A stretch of DNA of 64,000 nucleotides from Streptomyces durmitorensis (GTDB lineage: Bacteria; Actinomycetota; Actinomycetes; Streptomycetales; Streptomycetaceae), in the NCBI RefSeq assembly GCF_023498005.1, contig NZ_CP097289.1, positions 3,472,001-3,536,000 on the forward strand, written 5' to 3'. This document shows, piece by piece, positions 1,269 to 63,882 of this stretch. A program made the position numbers and the translations under genes. The notes under the pieces are model-generated. The model ran no database searches. It was not told the DNA's origin and saw only the letters and a list, made by a program, of their open reading frames with translations. The stretch's first letter is position 1. Each line of letters begins with the position of its first letter.

Positions 1269-1614
1269 GGAGGGCACGTGTGCGAGCGTACCTGGCAGGT
1301 CCGGCGGGTCCGCTCGGGGCGATTCCCGACGAGCCGCGGCGCCAGGGCGGGACCCTCAACCCACCCACGGCACCGCAGCCCTTCAGGAACACCGACCACC
1401 GGAATGTGCGGTACCGGACGGTCGATCGGAGGATCCGACACGGTCAGGGCAGAGAGTGCCGGCTCCTCGGTCCGTCCTCCTGTGCGGGAAGGACGGATGC
1501 TTTACCAACGCATTGTGGACTAGACCATTCTCCTGTGTCTACGCGTCGGCAGATGTTTGTTGTTGTCTCTTTCTCTCACTTGTCGCCCGGCGGACTTCCG
1601 CCGTCCCTGCGGAC
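1269..1614. other. Intergenic region with a candidate DasR site
   Basis: A 346-bp stretch between the kinase start and the end of the TetR gene. I see no gene with a good ribosome-binding site and codon bias. It holds the dre-like palindrome at 1514-1529 and presumably the promoter of the kinase. Confidence 0.5.
1514..1529. promoter_or_regulatory. Candidate DasR operator (dre)
   Basis: TGTGGACTAGACCATT contains the 12-mer TGGACTAGACCA, one mismatch from the palindromic dre core TGGTCTAGACCA. It lies upstream of the sensor kinase and 3' of the TetR gene. A functional site here would add the kinase to the GlcNAc regulon. This is inference from sequence match only. Confidence 0.4.
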
Positions 1615-15666: not shown

Positions 15667-15712
15667 ACACAAGATGTGGGGCTGCTTCTCAGAGCCAGCA
15701 CAAGATGTATGC
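15667..15712 (+). promoter_or_regulatory. Tandem NrdR-like boxes and promoter of nrdABS
   Basis: The 10-mer CACAAGATGT occurs at 15668-15677 and at 15699-15708, exactly 31 bp (three helical turns) apart. That is the arrangement of paired NrdR boxes in front of ribonucleotide reductase operons, where NrdR represses in response to (d)ATP levels. A TATGCT -10-like hexamer overlaps the second box, and the riboswitch begins just downstream. Confidence 0.75.
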
Positions 15713-15719
15713 TCGTGCT

Positions 15720-15847
15720 CGCTGTCGCCGCAGGGGAATCCGGTGCAAGTCCGGAACTGTCCCGCAACGGTGTATGAGTACGCATTTGTCGTGCCCACGA
15801 GTCCGAAGACCTGTCGACAGCGCACCCGTTCCGACCGGTCCGGGTGC
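15720..15847 (+). ncRNA. Cobalamin (B12) riboswitch of nrdABS
   Basis: P1 stem CGCTGTCG (15720-15727) pairs with CGACAGCG (15815-15822). Inside are the conserved GGGAATCCGGTGCAAGTCC and ACTGTCCCGCAACGG segments and the B12-box form GAGTCCGAAGACCTGTCG. A downstream hairpin GCACCCG/CGGGTGC (15822-15847), sharing a base with P1, is the likely expression platform. Coenzyme B12 is known to shut off the class Ia nrdABS operon this way in S. coelicolor, so that the B12-dependent class II enzyme is used instead. Confidence 0.93.
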
Positions 15848-41628: not shown

Positions 41629-41702
41629 TAGCGGGGACAGGATTTGAACCTGCGACCTCTGGGTTATGAGCCCAGCGAGCTACCGAGCTGCTCCACCCCG
41701 CG
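41629..41702 (-). tRNA. tRNA-Met (CAT), initiator tRNA-fMet, copy 1
   Basis: 74 nt, no encoded CCA. Anticodon CAT in CTGGGCTCATAACCCAG. Three consecutive G-C pairs in the anticodon stem and a C1-T72 mismatch at the top of the acceptor stem (CGCGGGG against CCCCGCT) are the initiator-tRNA hallmarks. Identical to the copy at 43891-43964. Confidence 0.96.
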
Positions 41703-43890: not shown

Positions 43891-43964
43891 TAGCGGGGAC
43901 AGGATTTGAACCTGCGACCTCTGGGTTATGAGCCCAGCGAGCTACCGAGCTGCTCCACCCCGCG
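43891..43964 (-). tRNA. tRNA-Met (CAT), initiator tRNA-fMet, copy 2
   Basis: Identical 74-nt sequence to copy 1, with the same C1-T72 mismatch and GC-rich anticodon stem. The identity extends into the 5' flank (GCCGTTGTGTT), so the duplication includes the leader. Confidence 0.96.
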
Positions 43965-60205: not shown

Positions 60206-60529
60206 TCACTGCATGACGGCGATGGCGAGCGCGCGCCTGGCGCGCAGCGACGCGCGCTCGGCGCGGCGCTGCATCCGGCGAGCCGCCATCAGACGGGCGG
60301 CCGGGCGCCCGGCCTCGGCCTCACGCATGCGTTCGTGCATATGCGCACGAGCCATGGCTTCTGGGATGAGTTGCATCTCGCGGGTCCTGTTCTGACGCGA
60401 TCCGTTCGCGCCGGTGGTGGTGAAGTCCGGGATTGCGGAGCCTGCGGGCTCAGCGGTGGCTGCCTTCATGGGGGCCTGCTTCTTGGGGTCGTGCGTCAGG
60501 GGGCGATCGATCGTTCCGGTGATGGTCAT
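60206..60529 (-). CDS. Small basic protein coupled to wblC
   Basis: 107 aa. The ATG overlaps the wblC stop (ATGA), so it is translated with wblC. N-terminal ITGTIDRPLTHDPKKQAP, C-terminal half strongly basic and Ala/Arg/Met-rich (RMREAEAGRPAARLMAARRM). No known domain; could be an RNA- or DNA-binding accessory. Being downstream in the transcript it should be induced by antibiotics together with wblC. Confidence 0.78.
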   Translation of the reverse strand: MTITGTIDRPLTHDPKKQAPMKAATAEPAGSAIPDFTTTGANGSRQNRTREMQLIPEAMARAHMHERMREAEAGRPAARLMAARRMQRRAERASLRARRALAIAVMQ

Positions 60530-60894
60530 GCCGCTACCGGGTTCTTGCGCGGACGGCCACGCGGCCGCTTGCGGGCAACGACCACACCCTGGACGAAGAG
60601 CTCGCCGCCCCAGACGCCCCACGGCTCACGCCGCTCCTTGGCGCCGGCCAGGCAGGCCTCCATCAGCGGGCAGGTACGGCAGAGGGACTTGGCGTACTCG
60701 ACGTCCGCCGGCGACTCGGCGAAGAAGACCTCCGGGTCGTAGGCACGGCAGGGGACGGGTACGCCGAGGTTCTCGATGGCGTCGTCGAGCGCGGTGAGCG
60801 CGGTCAGGGGAGTCAAGGTCGGGTCCTCCGTGGGAGCGGGCGGGGGGAGAGTCTCTGAAGGCGGTACGGACGGGGCGTGCGCTTCGAGTTGCAC
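60526..60894 (-). CDS. wblC: WhiB-family iron-sulfur regulator WblC (WhiB7)
   Basis: 122 aa. The four cluster-ligating Cys are in VPCRAYDP, SLCRTCPLMEAC (Cys-x2-Cys-x5-Cys), then the GVWGG turn and a C-terminal AT-hook RPRGRPRK, which together identify WhiB7/WblC. With principal sigma factor region 4 it activates intrinsic antibiotic-resistance genes at AT-rich promoters, including its own. It is preceded by a long leader (60895-61540) with attenuator and leader ORF. The next gene overlaps its stop. Synteny with uvrD2 and mycoredoxin matches whiB7 in Mycobacterium. Confidence 0.95.
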   Translation of the reverse strand: MQLEAHAPSVPPSETLPPPAPTEDPTLTPLTALTALDDAIENLGVPVPCRAYDPEVFFAESPADVEYAKSLCRTCPLMEACLAGAKERREPWGVWGGELFVQGVVVARKRPRGRPRKNPVAA

Positions 60895-60995
60895 GGTGGT
60901 GTTTTCCTCGTCTGGTCGTGCCGGCCTGGGTCGGCCGGTTGGCGGCTGGTACCGGGTCTTGCTCGGCCCCTTCGCTCCGTCATCCCGTTTTTGGG

Positions 60996-61038
60996 AAAAC
61001 AGAAGGGCCGCGGATCCCGGGTGGGGTTCCGCGGCCCT
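60996..61038 (-). promoter_or_regulatory. Rho-independent attenuator in the wblC leader
   Basis: On the minus strand an 11-bp stem (AGGGCCGCGGA and complement, plus 3 inner GC pairs) is followed by TTCTGTTTT. It ends about 100 nt before the wblC ATG and after the leader ORF, exactly where a terminator-attenuator controlling wblC would sit. Confidence 0.85.
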
Positions 61039-61048
61039 GAAGGCGCCG

Positions 61049-61067
61049 GTCTGATCGAGGATCAGAC
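61049..61067 (-). promoter_or_regulatory. Hairpin covering the leader ORF stop codon
   Basis: Perfect 8-bp stem GTCTGATC/GATCAGAC with a 3-nt loop. The TGA stop of the leader ORF (61064-61062) lies inside the stem, so a terminating or stalled ribosome would disrupt it. It is 11 bp from the attenuator stem. Confidence 0.7.
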
Positions 61068-61436
61068 TGGATCACTCCAGGGTTCGAGCCCACGGAAGGC
61101 CCACATCGTGTGGTGCTGCTGCGTCGTCTGGTGCTGCGTCTTCTTCTTCGATCCGGCACCGGCTGCGGCAAAGGCATAGGCCTGCGCCTGTGCCGTCACT
61201 ACTGCTTCCGGTGCCTTGGTCGCTCGCTCGCTGCCTTCATTGACCTCACGCATCGGAAGAACGTTGAGACGCGGGAGGGACAGAGGCAGGACAGAGGACT
61301 CCGGACGGATGGCGGCGGCAGCGATGCCACCGGACAGACCGGTGCCCAGGTTCGAGAAGCCGAGCAGGCAGGAAGCGACGACCGAGCGATCGGTCATTTT
61401 CGCGGTGCTGATGAAGCTCTCGTTGATGCTGATCAC
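61062..61436 (-). CDS. Leader ORF upstream of wblC, unknown 124-aa protein
   Basis: 124 codons from GTG 61436, preceded by AGGAGG at 8 nt, an excellent ribosome-binding site. The first 60 codons have coding-type GC3. N-terminus ISINESFISTAKMTDRSVVA, then Gly/Ala/Leu-rich SCLLGFSNLGTGLSGGIAAA, a Gln/Thr/His-rich stretch, and an aromatic C-terminal end HTMWAFRGLEPWSDPV. An internal ATG would give the 14-residue peptide MWAFRGLEPWSDPV, a plausible regulatory uORF. Located inside the wblC leader; translation probably controls the attenuator. No family recognised. Confidence 0.65.
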   Translation of the reverse strand: MISINESFISTAKMTDRSVVASCLLGFSNLGTGLSGGIAAAAIRPESSVLPLSLPRLNVLPMREVNEGSERATKAPEAVVTAQAQAYAFAAAGAGSKKKTQHQTTQQHHTMWAFRGLEPWSDPV

Positions 61437-61500
61437 TGGAATCGCCTCCTCTCGGCGTCTATGGGATCGGCCGGAACCGATCCTGCGGGCTATTAAGTAC

Positions 61501-61542
61501 AGCACGGGGCGAGGGCTTCGGAGAAGCCGCCGTTCCCGTGCT
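61501..61542 (-). promoter_or_regulatory. Structured 5' end of the wblC leader
   Basis: AGCACGGG (61501-61508) pairs with CCCGTGCT (61535-61542), and an inner hairpin GGCTTC/GAAGCC is nested. With a start point near 61540 this would form a hairpin at or very near the 5' end of the transcript. Confidence 0.6.
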
Positions 61543-61546
61543 TAAG

Positions 61547-61587
61547 AACCTATGGGTCTTCCTTGCGCCTGCGCAAACTATTTTTTC
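61547..61587 (-). promoter_or_regulatory. WblC/WhiB7-type promoter of wblC leader
   Basis: Minus strand: AT-rich GAAAAAATAGT (61587-61577) lies immediately upstream of -35 TTGCGC (61576-61571), spacer 18 bp, -10 TAGGTT (61552-61547). An AT-rich block next to a -35 is the hallmark of WhiB7-activated promoters, and it stands out in this GC-rich genome. It gives a leader of about 645 nt before wblC. Confidence 0.8.
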
Positions 61588-61599
61588 GACGAGTTTGAA

Positions 61600-63807
61600 T
61601 CAGTTGCCATCGGCGCCCCTTACAGGGTCCCCACCTGCACAAATGGCGAGGACATCAGATCCGAAGCGGTTGAGCTTGCGCACGCCGACTCCGGGGATCC
61701 GGGCCAGTTCGCCCTCCTCGTCGGGTGCGACCTCCGCGATGGCGATCAAGGTCTTGTCCGTGAACACGCAGTAGGCGGGCTGTCCGAGGAGCTCAGCCTG
61801 GCCCGAACGCCACTCCCGCAGGCGTTCGTACAGCCCCTCGTCCATGTCGGACGGGCAGTCCTCGCACCGCATGAGCTTCATCTCGCCCGCGTCGGTCAGG
61901 GTCCGCCCGCAGACCCGGCAGCGGGCCGGGGACCTGCTCGTCCGCCGGCGGCTCTTCGCACCGCCGCTCTCCACGCCCCCACTGCCGCGCTCGACCCCGC
62001 CGGGCCCGCCGCCCGCGGCGCGCGCTCCCGCACCCGCCCCCGAGCCGGGGCGCAGCCCGTCGAGGAAGCGGCTGGGGCGGCGACCCGCGCGACCGCCCGG
62101 TGAGCGGGACAGCGCCCAGGAGAGGGAGAGGTGGAGGCGGGCCCGGGTCACGCCCACGTACAGGAGGCGGCGCTCCTCTTCGATCTGCTCGTCCGTCTTG
62201 GCGTACGTGATCGGCATCATGCCCTCGGCGAGGCCGACCAGGAACACGGCGTCCCACTCCAGGCCCTTGGCCGCGTGCAGCGAGGCGAGGGTGACGCCCT
62301 CGACGGTCGGCGCGTGCTGGGCGCTCGCGCGCTCGTCGAGCTCCCCCACGAGGTCGGAGAGCGTCGCGTCGGGCTTGGCCCCGGCGAAGTCCTCGGCGAG
62401 GCGCACGAGGGCCGCCAGGGACTCCCAGCGGTCGCGGGCCGCTCCTGAGCCCGCCGGGGGCTGCGTCGTCCAGCCCTTCGTGGACAGGACGGCCCGCACC
62501 TGCGAGGGCAGGTCGATGACGTCGTCAAGGAGGGAGTCGTTGCCCCCGAAGCGGGCCGCGCCGCGCAGGGCCGCGCCCGCCTCGCGGACCTCGGTGCGCT
62601 CGAAGAACCGCTCGGCGCCACGCAGCTGATAGGGCACGCCGGCGTCGGCGAGTGCCTGCTCGTAGATCTCGGACTGGGAGTTCGTGCGGAAGAGGACCGC
62701 GATCTCGCTCGCCGGGACGCCGTCGGCGATGAGGGCCCGGATGCGGCGGGCGGCGCCTTCGGCCTCGGCGGGCTCGTCCGCGTACTCCGTGTAGACCGGT
62801 TCGGCTCCGGCGTCGCGCTGGGAGATCAGTTCGAGGCGGTGGTCCGCGGCGCGGCCCCGGGCCTGGGAGAGCAGGCCGTTGGCGAGGTGGACGACCTGGG
62901 GCGTGGAGCGGTAGTCCCGGACGAGCTTGACGACCGTCGCTCCGGGGTGGCGGGTGCGGAAGTTCAGGAGGTGGTCGGGGGTCGCGCCGGTGAAGGAGTA
63001 GATCGTCTGGCTGGCGTCGCCGACGACGCAGAGGCTGTCGCGGTCGCCGAGCCACAGCTCCAGGAGGCGCTGCTGGAGCGGGCTGACGTCCTGATACTCG
63101 TCGACCACGAAGTGTTGGTACTGGGCGCGGACCTGGTCGGCGATGTCGTGGCGGTCCTGGAGGATGCCGACGGCCAGGAGCAGGACGTCCTCGAAGTCGA
63201 TGACGGAGCGCTCGCGCTTCAGGTCTTCGTACGCGCCGTAGATCTGGGCGATCTCCGCCGCGTCACGGGGGATGAGGCGGCCCGACTTCGCGGCGGCCGC
63301 CGCATAGTCCGAGGGGACGGTCTGGGTGACCTTGGACCACTCGATCTCGCTCGTCACGTCGCGCAGTTCGTTGCGGTCGAGGCGGATGCGGGATGCGGCC
63401 GCCGCGTCCGCGACGATCTTGATCTTCCGGTCGACGATCCGGGGCAGCGAGCCGCCGACCGCCTTGGGCCAGAAGAACTGGAGCTGGCGCAGGGCCGCGG
63501 AGTGGAACGTGCGCGCCTGGACCCCGGAGGCGCCGAGCTGGCGCAGGCGGCCGCGCATCTCGCCCGCCGCGCGGTTGGTGAACGTGACGGCGAGCACGCT
63601 GGCGGGCTGGAGGATCCCGGCGCGCACGCCATAGGCGATCCGGTGCGTGATCGCCCGTGTCTTGCCCGTCCCGGCGCCTGCCAGGACACACACCGGCCCG
63701 TGCAGGGCGGTGGCCACCTCGCGCTGCTCGGGGTCGAGCCCGGCGAGCACCGCGTCGGCAGAGTCCGGGACCTGCGGGAAGAGGGTGGAGTGCGTTGCTG
63801 CTGTCAC
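61600..63807 (-). CDS. uvrD2: UvrD2-type ATP-dependent DNA helicase with tetra-Cys and HRDC
   Basis: 735 aa from GTG 63807 (start uncertain, weak Shine-Dalgarno). Superfamily 1 helicase: Walker A VLAGAGTGKTRAITHR, motif Ia VTFTNRAAGEM, motif II FVVDEYQDVSPLQ, motif III VGDASQTIYSF, motif IV DYRSTPQVV, motif VI LYVGVTRAR. After it come CRVCGRTLTDAG and RCEDC forming CxxC-N14-CxxC, and a C-terminal HRDC domain (LYERLREWRSGQAELLGQPA). This matches mycobacterial UvrD2. Unwinds DNA 3'-5' in repair. Confidence 0.94.
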   Translation of the reverse strand: MTAATHSTLFPQVPDSADAVLAGLDPEQREVATALHGPVCVLAGAGTGKTRAITHRIAYGVRAGILQPASVLAVTFTNRAAGEMRGRLRQLGASGVQARTFHSAALRQLQFFWPKAVGGSLPRIVDRKIKIVADAAAASRIRLDRNELRDVTSEIEWSKVTQTVPSDYAAAAAKSGRLIPRDAAEIAQIYGAYEDLKRERSVIDFEDVLLLAVGILQDRHDIADQVRAQYQHFVVDEYQDVSPLQQRLLELWLGDRDSLCVVGDASQTIYSFTGATPDHLLNFRTRHPGATVVKLVRDYRSTPQVVHLANGLLSQARGRAADHRLELISQRDAGAEPVYTEYADEPAEAEGAARRIRALIADGVPASEIAVLFRTNSQSEIYEQALADAGVPYQLRGAERFFERTEVREAGAALRGAARFGGNDSLLDDVIDLPSQVRAVLSTKGWTTQPPAGSGAARDRWESLAALVRLAEDFAGAKPDATLSDLVGELDERASAQHAPTVEGVTLASLHAAKGLEWDAVFLVGLAEGMMPITYAKTDEQIEEERRLLYVGVTRARLHLSLSWALSRSPGGRAGRRPSRFLDGLRPGSGAGAGARAAGGGPGGVERGSGGVESGGAKSRRRTSRSPARCRVCGRTLTDAGEMKLMRCEDCPSDMDEGLYERLREWRSGQAELLGQPAYCVFTDKTLIAIAEVAPDEEGELARIPGVGVRKLNRFGSDVLAICAGGDPVRGADGN

Positions 63808-63846
63808 CCCGCCATGCTGCCAGGTCGCCGGAGGCGCGTGAGCCCG

Positions 63847-63882
63847 GTTGTCCACAGGGAGGCCGGTGCAGTCGTACTAATG
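63847..63882. promoter_or_regulatory. Bipartite element, copy 2 (with DnaA-box-like part)
   Basis: Plus strand GTTGTCCACAGGGAGG, 8 nt, GTCGTACTAAT; reverse complement matches the element at 57181-57216 with identical spacing. TTGTCCACA is at 63848-63856. It lies in the divergent uvrD2-mrx1 gap, just upstream of the sigma-R promoter. Confidence 0.6.

Follow-up and report, generated by a model that had tools for sequence, protein, structure and literature searches.

The leader that precedes wblC on the minus strand of the window (the whole stretch of 64,000 nucleotides analysed here) is very probably a uORF-mediated transcription attenuator of wblC, as judged from sequence conservation and predicted folds. 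It appears to belong to the whiB7/wblC uORF attenuators, with the regulator gene, the promoter, a framed uORF, a terminator and a predicted antiterminator all found. More tentatively, and with some reserve, we suggest that the uORF could be a selected ‘translated spacer’, whose frame is kept open, in phase and long while its amino-acid sequence is almost free, length being tuned rather than peptide.

Anatomy of the wblC leader

The gene wblC (60526-60894, minus strand, GTG start at 60894) encodes a WhiB7-type regulator of 122 amino acids with the C-terminus KRPRGRPRKNPVAA, which matches the Pfam family PF02467 (WhiB) with 54.7 bits for a cut-off of 23.6. The genome that contains the window (G000, 9.86 Mb) has eight WhiB matches in all, the top one lying about 440 bases before the window start (G000:C1:3471359-3471565). 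A leader of about 645 nt lies between the neighbouring helicase gene (UvrD/HRDC; 61600-63855, minus strand) and wblC.

Passages of PMC7157823 give the WblC promoter consensus as GAAAWY, 3 nt, TKGMNN, 16-19 nt and TANNNT. The promoter of the window locus (61547-61576) agrees with it: a WblC-type AT-rich motif, AAAAAT (61580-61585), identical to GAAAWY at five of six bases, lies 3 nt upstream of the −35 element TTGCGC (61576-61571), which is separated by 18 nt from the −10 element TAGGTT (61552-61547), so that both the gap and the spacer fit. The same passages place the start site of WblC promoters 7-8 bp downstream of the −10 element, and by analogy wblC transcription would be expected to start near 61540. 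A block of the form AAATAGTTTG, or AAAT..TTTGC, is present in 70 of 70 family loci (L057-L126).

The 5′ part of the leader contains a hairpin, CACGGG...CCCGTG (61503-61540), recognised from its sequence and from kept pairs; of 59 Streptomyces leaders, 55-59 maintain five of its base pairs, some of which have changed from G-C to A-U. A second hairpin, GGATCGG/CCGATCC (61464-61483), was read from the sequence, and a stem of altered sequence is visible by eye at the same place in many relatives. The Shine-Dalgarno (SD) sequence AGGAGG (61445-61450), located 8 nt before the GTG codon of the uORF, lies within a 19-nt block, AGACGCCGAGAGGAGGCGA (61460-61442), that is nearly invariant in Streptomyces. 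This block could fold as CGCC-GAGAGGA-GGCG (−6.5 kcal/mol), a structure that might limit initiation at the uORF. RNAalifold, applied to 59 Streptomyces leaders (L025 was dropped, its −10 element not being found), did not give one conserved fold for the whole leader; most of the helices were short, and in the ORF body covariation was slight. The SD block could also pair at long range with the spacer preceding the terminator; this pairing appeared in the consensus fold of 57-59 of the 59 sequences with no covariation, and is unproven.

The uORF has 124 codons (61062-61436, minus strand), from the GTG at 61436 to the TGA at 61064-61062. Its stop codon is included in a perfect 8-bp hairpin, GUCUGAUC-cuc-GAUCAGAC (61049-61067), and an intrinsic terminator follows about 100 nt before wblC (60996-61037), composed of a stem (61037-61005) and a U-rich tail, TTCTGTTTT, that runs to 60996. 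The terminator helix consists of 13 pairs, with 99.3% of cells paired in 75 distinct sequences; nine of the 13 pairs never vary and hence say little. The original prediction for this locus had drawn the promoter, the 5′ hairpin, the SD sequence, the 124-codon ORF, the stop hairpin and the terminator almost base for base as we find them, and had made its case depend on a termination signal at 60996, where a conserved terminator is indeed present. A simple consensus scan of the window reported neither this promoter nor this terminator; the rules of the scan permit loops of 3-8 only, and both elements were judged by conservation instead.

An Rfam search of the window at the gathering score gave four matches, none at the wblC leader. 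A cobalamin riboswitch aptamer (15709-15832, plus strand, 44.5 bits) and the Streptomyces sRNA scr5239 (1339-1499, minus strand, 114.5 bits) were found elsewhere in the window, which also carries two tRNA genes (41629-41702 and 43891-43964, minus strand, 61.7 bits each), possibly copies of one gene.

The same layout could be read as an ordinary long 5′ UTR, with wblC transcribed from an internal start and the terminator ending the transcript of the upstream gene. The helicase gene on the same strand does end just upstream of the leader, but the promoter, the SD sequence, the frame, the stop hairpin and the terminator are all conserved together, and both start sites and attenuation are described for whiB7/wblC genes in passages of PMC7157823, PMC11550727 and PMC4128351, leaving this reading scarcely credible.

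Distribution of the uORF and conservation of its frame

A uORF is present upstream of wblC in 37 of 37 genomes of the same genus. A search with the ORF protein retrieved it in 36 of these and in none of 24 other genomes, and the missing one (G035) was recovered through wblC. The WblC cysteine motif lies 318-409 nt after the uORF stop in all 37. At the family level, wblC was matched in 149 of 150 genomes, the single miss being a genome 71% complete. Leaders were read from 70 of the 149; two were repeats (L057, L068), and the 68 new sequences were added to the 37 to give a set of 105. In each of the 68 further loci, an ORF preceded by an SD sequence ends shortly before the terminator. To count as a candidate, an ORF had to have 80-185 codons and a W close to its end; 40 leaders listed without this limit also show such an ORF, accompanied in a few cases by other candidates. 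Across the 105 sequences the uORF measures 273-546 nt, i.e. 91-182 codons, stop included. The 77-row leader alignment used below (75 distinct sequences) omits 28 Streptomyces leaders (L058-L086 without L068).

The comparison was extended to other genera with 25 loci, five of them from further families of the order and 20 from further families of the class. In 21 of these, a uORF of 64-148 codons preceded by an SD sequence was found; three had none by our rule and one had no readable wblC. The 21 uORFs end 203-367 nt before the wblC cysteine motif, and the terminator rule fired in 15 of these 21 loci. A stem of the GGCCGCGG type was present in 24 of 24 other-genera loci searched. With a looser SD rule, one or more uORFs that end close to the chosen terminator were present in 19 of 20 further loci of the class; taking the longest candidate at each locus, the length is 61-202 codons, but three loci also fit a candidate of 3-14 codons, a picture less clear than that of the 25 loci. 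The original prediction had held so long an ORF to be unusual; with 21 of the 25 loci carrying uORFs of 64-148 codons, these sequences indicate that a long uORF is common before wblC and not an oddity. One contig titled Streptosporangium nondiastaticum (L246, 2319-2367) bears a uORF end of the Streptomyces type, corresponding either to a mislabelled genome or to a transfer.

The spacing of conserved elements indicates that the uORF frame is under selection. The phase could be measured in 95 of the 105 sequences, those in which the nucleotide block GAGCGACCG (ERP block) or a near form of it was found. From the start codon to this block the distance is divisible by three in 95 of 95, with 32 distinct distances, and from the block to the terminal CCTGG a single phase is observed, again in 95 of 95, with 25 distinct distances. 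As non-coding controls, the distances from promoter to start are spread evenly over the three phases (33/35/37 of 105), as are those from the terminator to the wblC cysteine motif (31/36/38 of 105). Frame-breaking indels in relatives, which would have told against the original prediction, are thus not seen in the 95 measurable sequences of the 105. Among the gaps counted over 45 disjoint close pairs, those with a length divisible by three number 98 of 179 in the uORF versus 46 of 283 in the non-coding flanks, i.e. the 5′ leader and the spacer between terminator and wblC (Fisher p about 5e-18). The other 81 uORF gaps are individually not multiples of three, in a nucleotide alignment made without frame information; since the total spacing of the uORF is in phase, these gaps must offset one another. 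A stop is present in the +1 frame in 105 of 105 sequences and in the +2 frame in 87, the ORF frame being stop-free by construction.

With the frame held, first, second and third codon positions of the uORF body all appear to change about as fast as non-coding sequence, which is the pattern of a frame kept for translation. In 60 Streptomyces leaders (a set that omits five more distant ones, L027 and L034-L037), the mean pairwise mismatch of the body by codon position is.213/.209/.201 (pN/pS 0.91), and that of wblC in the genomes of the same leaders is.025/.008/.208 (pN/pS 0.07). A whole-ORF count on the first 37 leaders gave pS.236 and pN.206. As a safeguard against misalignment, the count was repeated on 42 disjoint pairs (of the 45) with at least 80% identity, yielding.107/.105/.115 for the uORF body (chi-square p 0.41),.011/.004/.146 for wblC,.115 for the non-coding 5′ leader and.08 for the spacer between terminator and wblC. 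The test gave no sign of purifying selection on the amino acids of the uORF body. The idea of a separate conserved peptide, put forward in the original prediction, gains no support here: the body changes about equally at the three positions, and the conservation of the tail is largely explained by base pairing (see below).

A uORF encoding its own functional small protein, co-expressed with wblC, would agree with the frame, start and SD sequence being kept in 105 sequences, and the composition of the uORF is coding-like. Such a protein is nevertheless very improbable in view of the flat mismatch in close pairs, about equal to that of the 5′ leader and unlike that of wblC, of the variation in length from 91 to 182 codons (with stop), and of the lack of any Pfam family at E 0.001. 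The drifting body contains four near-invariant nucleotide islands (61400-61382, 61346-61329, 61238-61211 and 61181-61171), which have no proven pairing partner or function. Some rare codons are also kept in the body: AAA in 98, CGA in 102 and GCA in 94 of 105.

The composition of the uORF led us to consider two further readings. Alanine, serine and threonine contexts are linked to context-specific peptidyl-transferase inhibitors, and the enrichment of these residues (36.8% versus 22.6% in three neighbouring genes) was considered as a target of such inhibitors; it was rejected, base composition explaining Ala and Thr almost fully and Ser less. Alternatively, the main job of the leader could be aminoacyl-tRNA sensing, with the uORF as an alanine-rich composition sensor and the drug response as a by-product. 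Alanine reaches 18.3% of the uORF body versus 13.5% in three neighbouring genes, and 18.0% in 23 uORFs of other genera; work by Poulton in 2024 is said to have found that whiB7 expression depends on uORF amino-acid composition. We regard this main role as unlikely: alanine is only 1.15 times as frequent as predicted from base composition per codon position, Gln, Lys, Phe and Ser exceed this prediction more, and Asp and Pro are depleted. Amino-acid starvation does induce whiB7/wblC according to passages of PMC11550727 and PMC13393426, and alanine sensing is compatible with, rather than opposed to, a uORF that acts as a timer of translation.

The conserved tail and the predicted antiterminator

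The original prediction had asked whether the whole protein or only its last 14 codons would prove conserved in alignments: the last 14 codons (MWAFRG.EPWSDP) are, with a pN/pS of 0.26, and the body, at 0.91, is not. Several tail codons are held fixed (AGT in 56, GAT in 59, CCA in 59 and GAA in 56 of 60 leaders), and AGT and CCA represent 1% and 4%, respectively, of the codons for their amino acid in four neighbouring genes. A shorter ORF of 14 codons, initiated at an internal ATG, had also been envisaged; that ATG is found in only 82 of the 105 sequences, the others having AAG, TTT, ACG, AGC or another codon, and the window has no AGGAGG-like site ahead of it, which argues against such an ORF.

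We propose that the tail is conserved mainly as RNA: a predicted antiterminator would take one of its strands from the tail, and the last codon shows covariation with the stop hairpin. The predicted 5′ strand (61076-61104) lies inside the last uORF codons and comprises three segments, GUGGG (61104-61100), UUCCGUGG (61097-61090) and CCCUGGA (61082-61076). Its putative partner (61021-61041) is formed by the spacer sequence UUCAGGG, the terminator 5′ arm CCGCGGAA and the loop CCCAC. The helix between CCCUGGA and UUCAGGG or its variants is 99.8% paired, and that between UUCCGUGG and CCGCGGAA, together with two G-C pairs, is 94.9% paired. These inner and middle helices hardly covary, the terminator holding their 3′ strand constant. 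For the outermost helix (GUGGG with CCCAC), pairing in a fixed register reaches only 55.4%; in a free register it has a mean of 4.83 pairs, against a mean of 4.65 and a maximum of 4.83 in 2000 shuffles uncorrected for relatedness. At this position, a change from TGG to CGG (W to R) tends to accompany the replacement of CCCAC by CCCGC or CCCGT in the terminator loop. Tested on five measures against 500 shuffles, which leave relatedness in, the whole structure beats every shuffle on four measures and 498 of them on the remaining one; it also beats every slid version except in pair types, for which one slide reaches 25 versus 24.

The stop hairpin is 93.3% paired in the 77-leader alignment, and four of its eight pairs have changed on both sides. 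In 37 leaders inspected by eye, the last codon (GCC, GTC or ACC) mostly changes together with GGC, GAC or GGT across the hairpin, the rest forming G-U pairs. In other genera, inspection by eye suggests that AGACCGG could pair with codons such as CCACCGGTC, which would make up the 5′ side of a stop hairpin. A small stem before the stop (CTGGA-GTGA-TCCAG at the window locus) looked good in 37 Streptomyces, the third base being T, C or A; as a conserved GNRA hairpin, CTGGA-GNGA-TCCAG, it was abandoned with 84% pairing and no covariation in 75 distinct family sequences.

Synonymous recoding proved a weak control for selection on the RNA, the recoded versions still pairing. Random recoding of the last 15 codons left a mean of 18.7 of the 22 antiterminator pairs, 143 of 1000 versions reaching all 22, and 679 of 1000 folded as stably or more stably. 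Codon choice alone is therefore no strong evidence, and some selection on the amino acids of the tail is possible.

This last point leaves some room for another explanation of the tail, namely a nascent-chain arrest peptide (MWAFRG.EPWSDP, or an ending in PPV in other genera) that would stall the ribosome with certain drugs, as in erm leaders. The low pN/pS of the last 14 codons relative to the body speaks for it as well, as do one W and one G column that are invariant in the 105 sequences, a P kept in 100 of them, and the PPV or PPA with which 19 of the 21 uORFs of other genera end. The changes seen in the tail follow pairing, however, W (TGG) tending to become R (CGG) with the loop and the last codon varying with the stop hairpin; the tail codons are rare ones kept unchanged (AGT and CCA above); the tail reads RERT or SWRTRT in some genera; and a stall in the last 12 or so codons would, in our model, itself cover the antiterminator strand. 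We therefore consider an arrest peptide quite improbable, and retain RNA pairing as the likely main reason for the conservation of the tail.

Switching model and relation to known attenuators

When the nascent transcript was folded up to the terminator loop, the antiterminator formed at least eight pairs in the minimum-energy fold of 77 of 77 leaders. Once the 3′ arm is included, the median energy favours the terminator fold by about 8 kcal/mol (−60.6 versus −52.2), a gap overstated by the comparison, in which the antiterminator state had its 3′ arm kept unpaired; L106, one of six cases shown, had a free fold with the 3′ arm that was not the terminator (−73.0 versus −72.7). These results imply that the outcome should depend on timing. 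We then masked a 31-nt ribosome footprint on the window leader, in which 22 antiterminator pairs are possible. In this model, all 22 pairs are available with the A site at codon −18 from the stop or earlier, 17 at −16, 16 at −14, nine at −12, none at −10, 0-9 from −8 to −2, and 18 at the stop. A ribosome would thus block the antiterminator while crossing the last 12 or so codons, and a delay before them would leave the strand bare. Since no block would come from a ribosome that waits at the stop codon, speed over the final codons should matter. The original prediction that the leader refolds according to ribosomes over the end of the ORF agrees with a predicted antiterminator that uses the last codons and with the nascent folds of all 77 leaders; uORF-linked attenuation at wblC, the WblC-type promoter, the terminator and the stop hairpin, also part of it, are likewise supported.

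The following sequence of events can be proposed. Transcription would start at the WblC-activated promoter, and ribosomes would load at the strong SD sequence and trail RNA polymerase through the 124-codon uORF. Ribosomes keeping pace would occupy the last 12 or so codons while the spacer and the terminator 5′ arm are made; the antiterminator strand being covered, the terminator would form and transcription would stop. If elongation is slowed anywhere upstream, by a drug or by amino-acid shortage, the antiterminator strand would be left bare and could form about 20 bp with a partner made of spacer, terminator 5′ arm and loop, allowing the polymerase to enter wblC, whose product would then activate its own promoter. 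The rare codons GAA, AGT, GAT and CCA may hold the ribosome in the blocking window, and the stop hairpin may pause the polymerase. The long frame may act as a sequence-agnostic translation timer, in which a long ribosome run behind the polymerase would sum small slow-downs, caused by any drug or by amino-acid shortage, into a lag that exposes the antiterminator.

The mechanism of whiB7/wblC attenuation is published (passages of PMC11550727, PMC10727445, PMC13393426 and PMC7157823) and is traced to Lee, Lee and Roe (2022, Mol Microbiol 117:179), as cited in PMC11550727, PMC10727445, PMC12421871 and PMC13393426. According to a 2024 review (PMC11550727), translation of the wblC uORF promotes the terminator, drugs favour the antiterminator and amino-acid starvation also acts. 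Actinobacterial whiB7 genes typically have long uORF-bearing leaders, with an antiterminator formed from overlapping uORF and terminator sequences (passages of PMC10727445, 2023). The predicted antiterminator of the window leader likewise uses both uORF and terminator sequences, with partial covariation and a weak outermost helix. Compared through the citing papers, the attenuator of Lee 2022 and the window leader have in common the gene, the autoactivated promoter, the uORF, the terminator and an antiterminator made from shared uORF and terminator sequences, and this indirect comparison established no difference between them. The whiB7 leaders of M. bovis, M. marinum and M. tuberculosis share the SD-preceded uORF, a 3′ stem-loop with a T-rich tail and attenuation before the whiB7 start (passages of PMC4128351 and PMC13236596); the mycobacterial start sites lie about 350 nt upstream according to the former, versus about 645 nt at the wblC of the window.

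Leaders of ABCF genes (tiaA and are5sc of Streptomyces) also use ribosome stalling to switch from terminator to antiterminator, but their uORFs have 3-9 codons with stalling at the start codon, whereas those of wblC leaders have 91-182 codons (with stop) and a body whose amino acids are not fixed (passages of PMC12421871 for the ABCF leaders). Amino-acid attenuators such as trp and ilvB1 share the principle that the position of the ribosome on the leader ORF picks one of two hairpins (passages of PMC13236596); unlike these, the wblC uORF shows no recognised run of regulatory codons, and what is kept is the open frame and its translation. The passages of the whiB7/wblC literature at hand contain no statement on uORF evolution that conserves the frame and is neutral for amino acids, which is not to claim that it is absent from print; as far as we have seen, the evolutionary signature of frame without sequence is apparently new.

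A worthwhile question about whiB7/wblC is how a single leader can sense many ribosome drugs that are unrelated to each other. That the frame is kept while the amino acids change as fast as non-coding DNA argues for a sensor of ribosome progress and not of a peptide motif, and this signature makes the choice between timer and arrest peptide experimentally addressable. It also calls for caution in taking conserved leader ‘peptides’ as protein, as the last codon's A/V/T changes look as though they compensate within base pairs, and the same holds in part for the W-to-R changes. If the uORF is indeed a translated spacer, it would give a single leader a broad and sensitive response.
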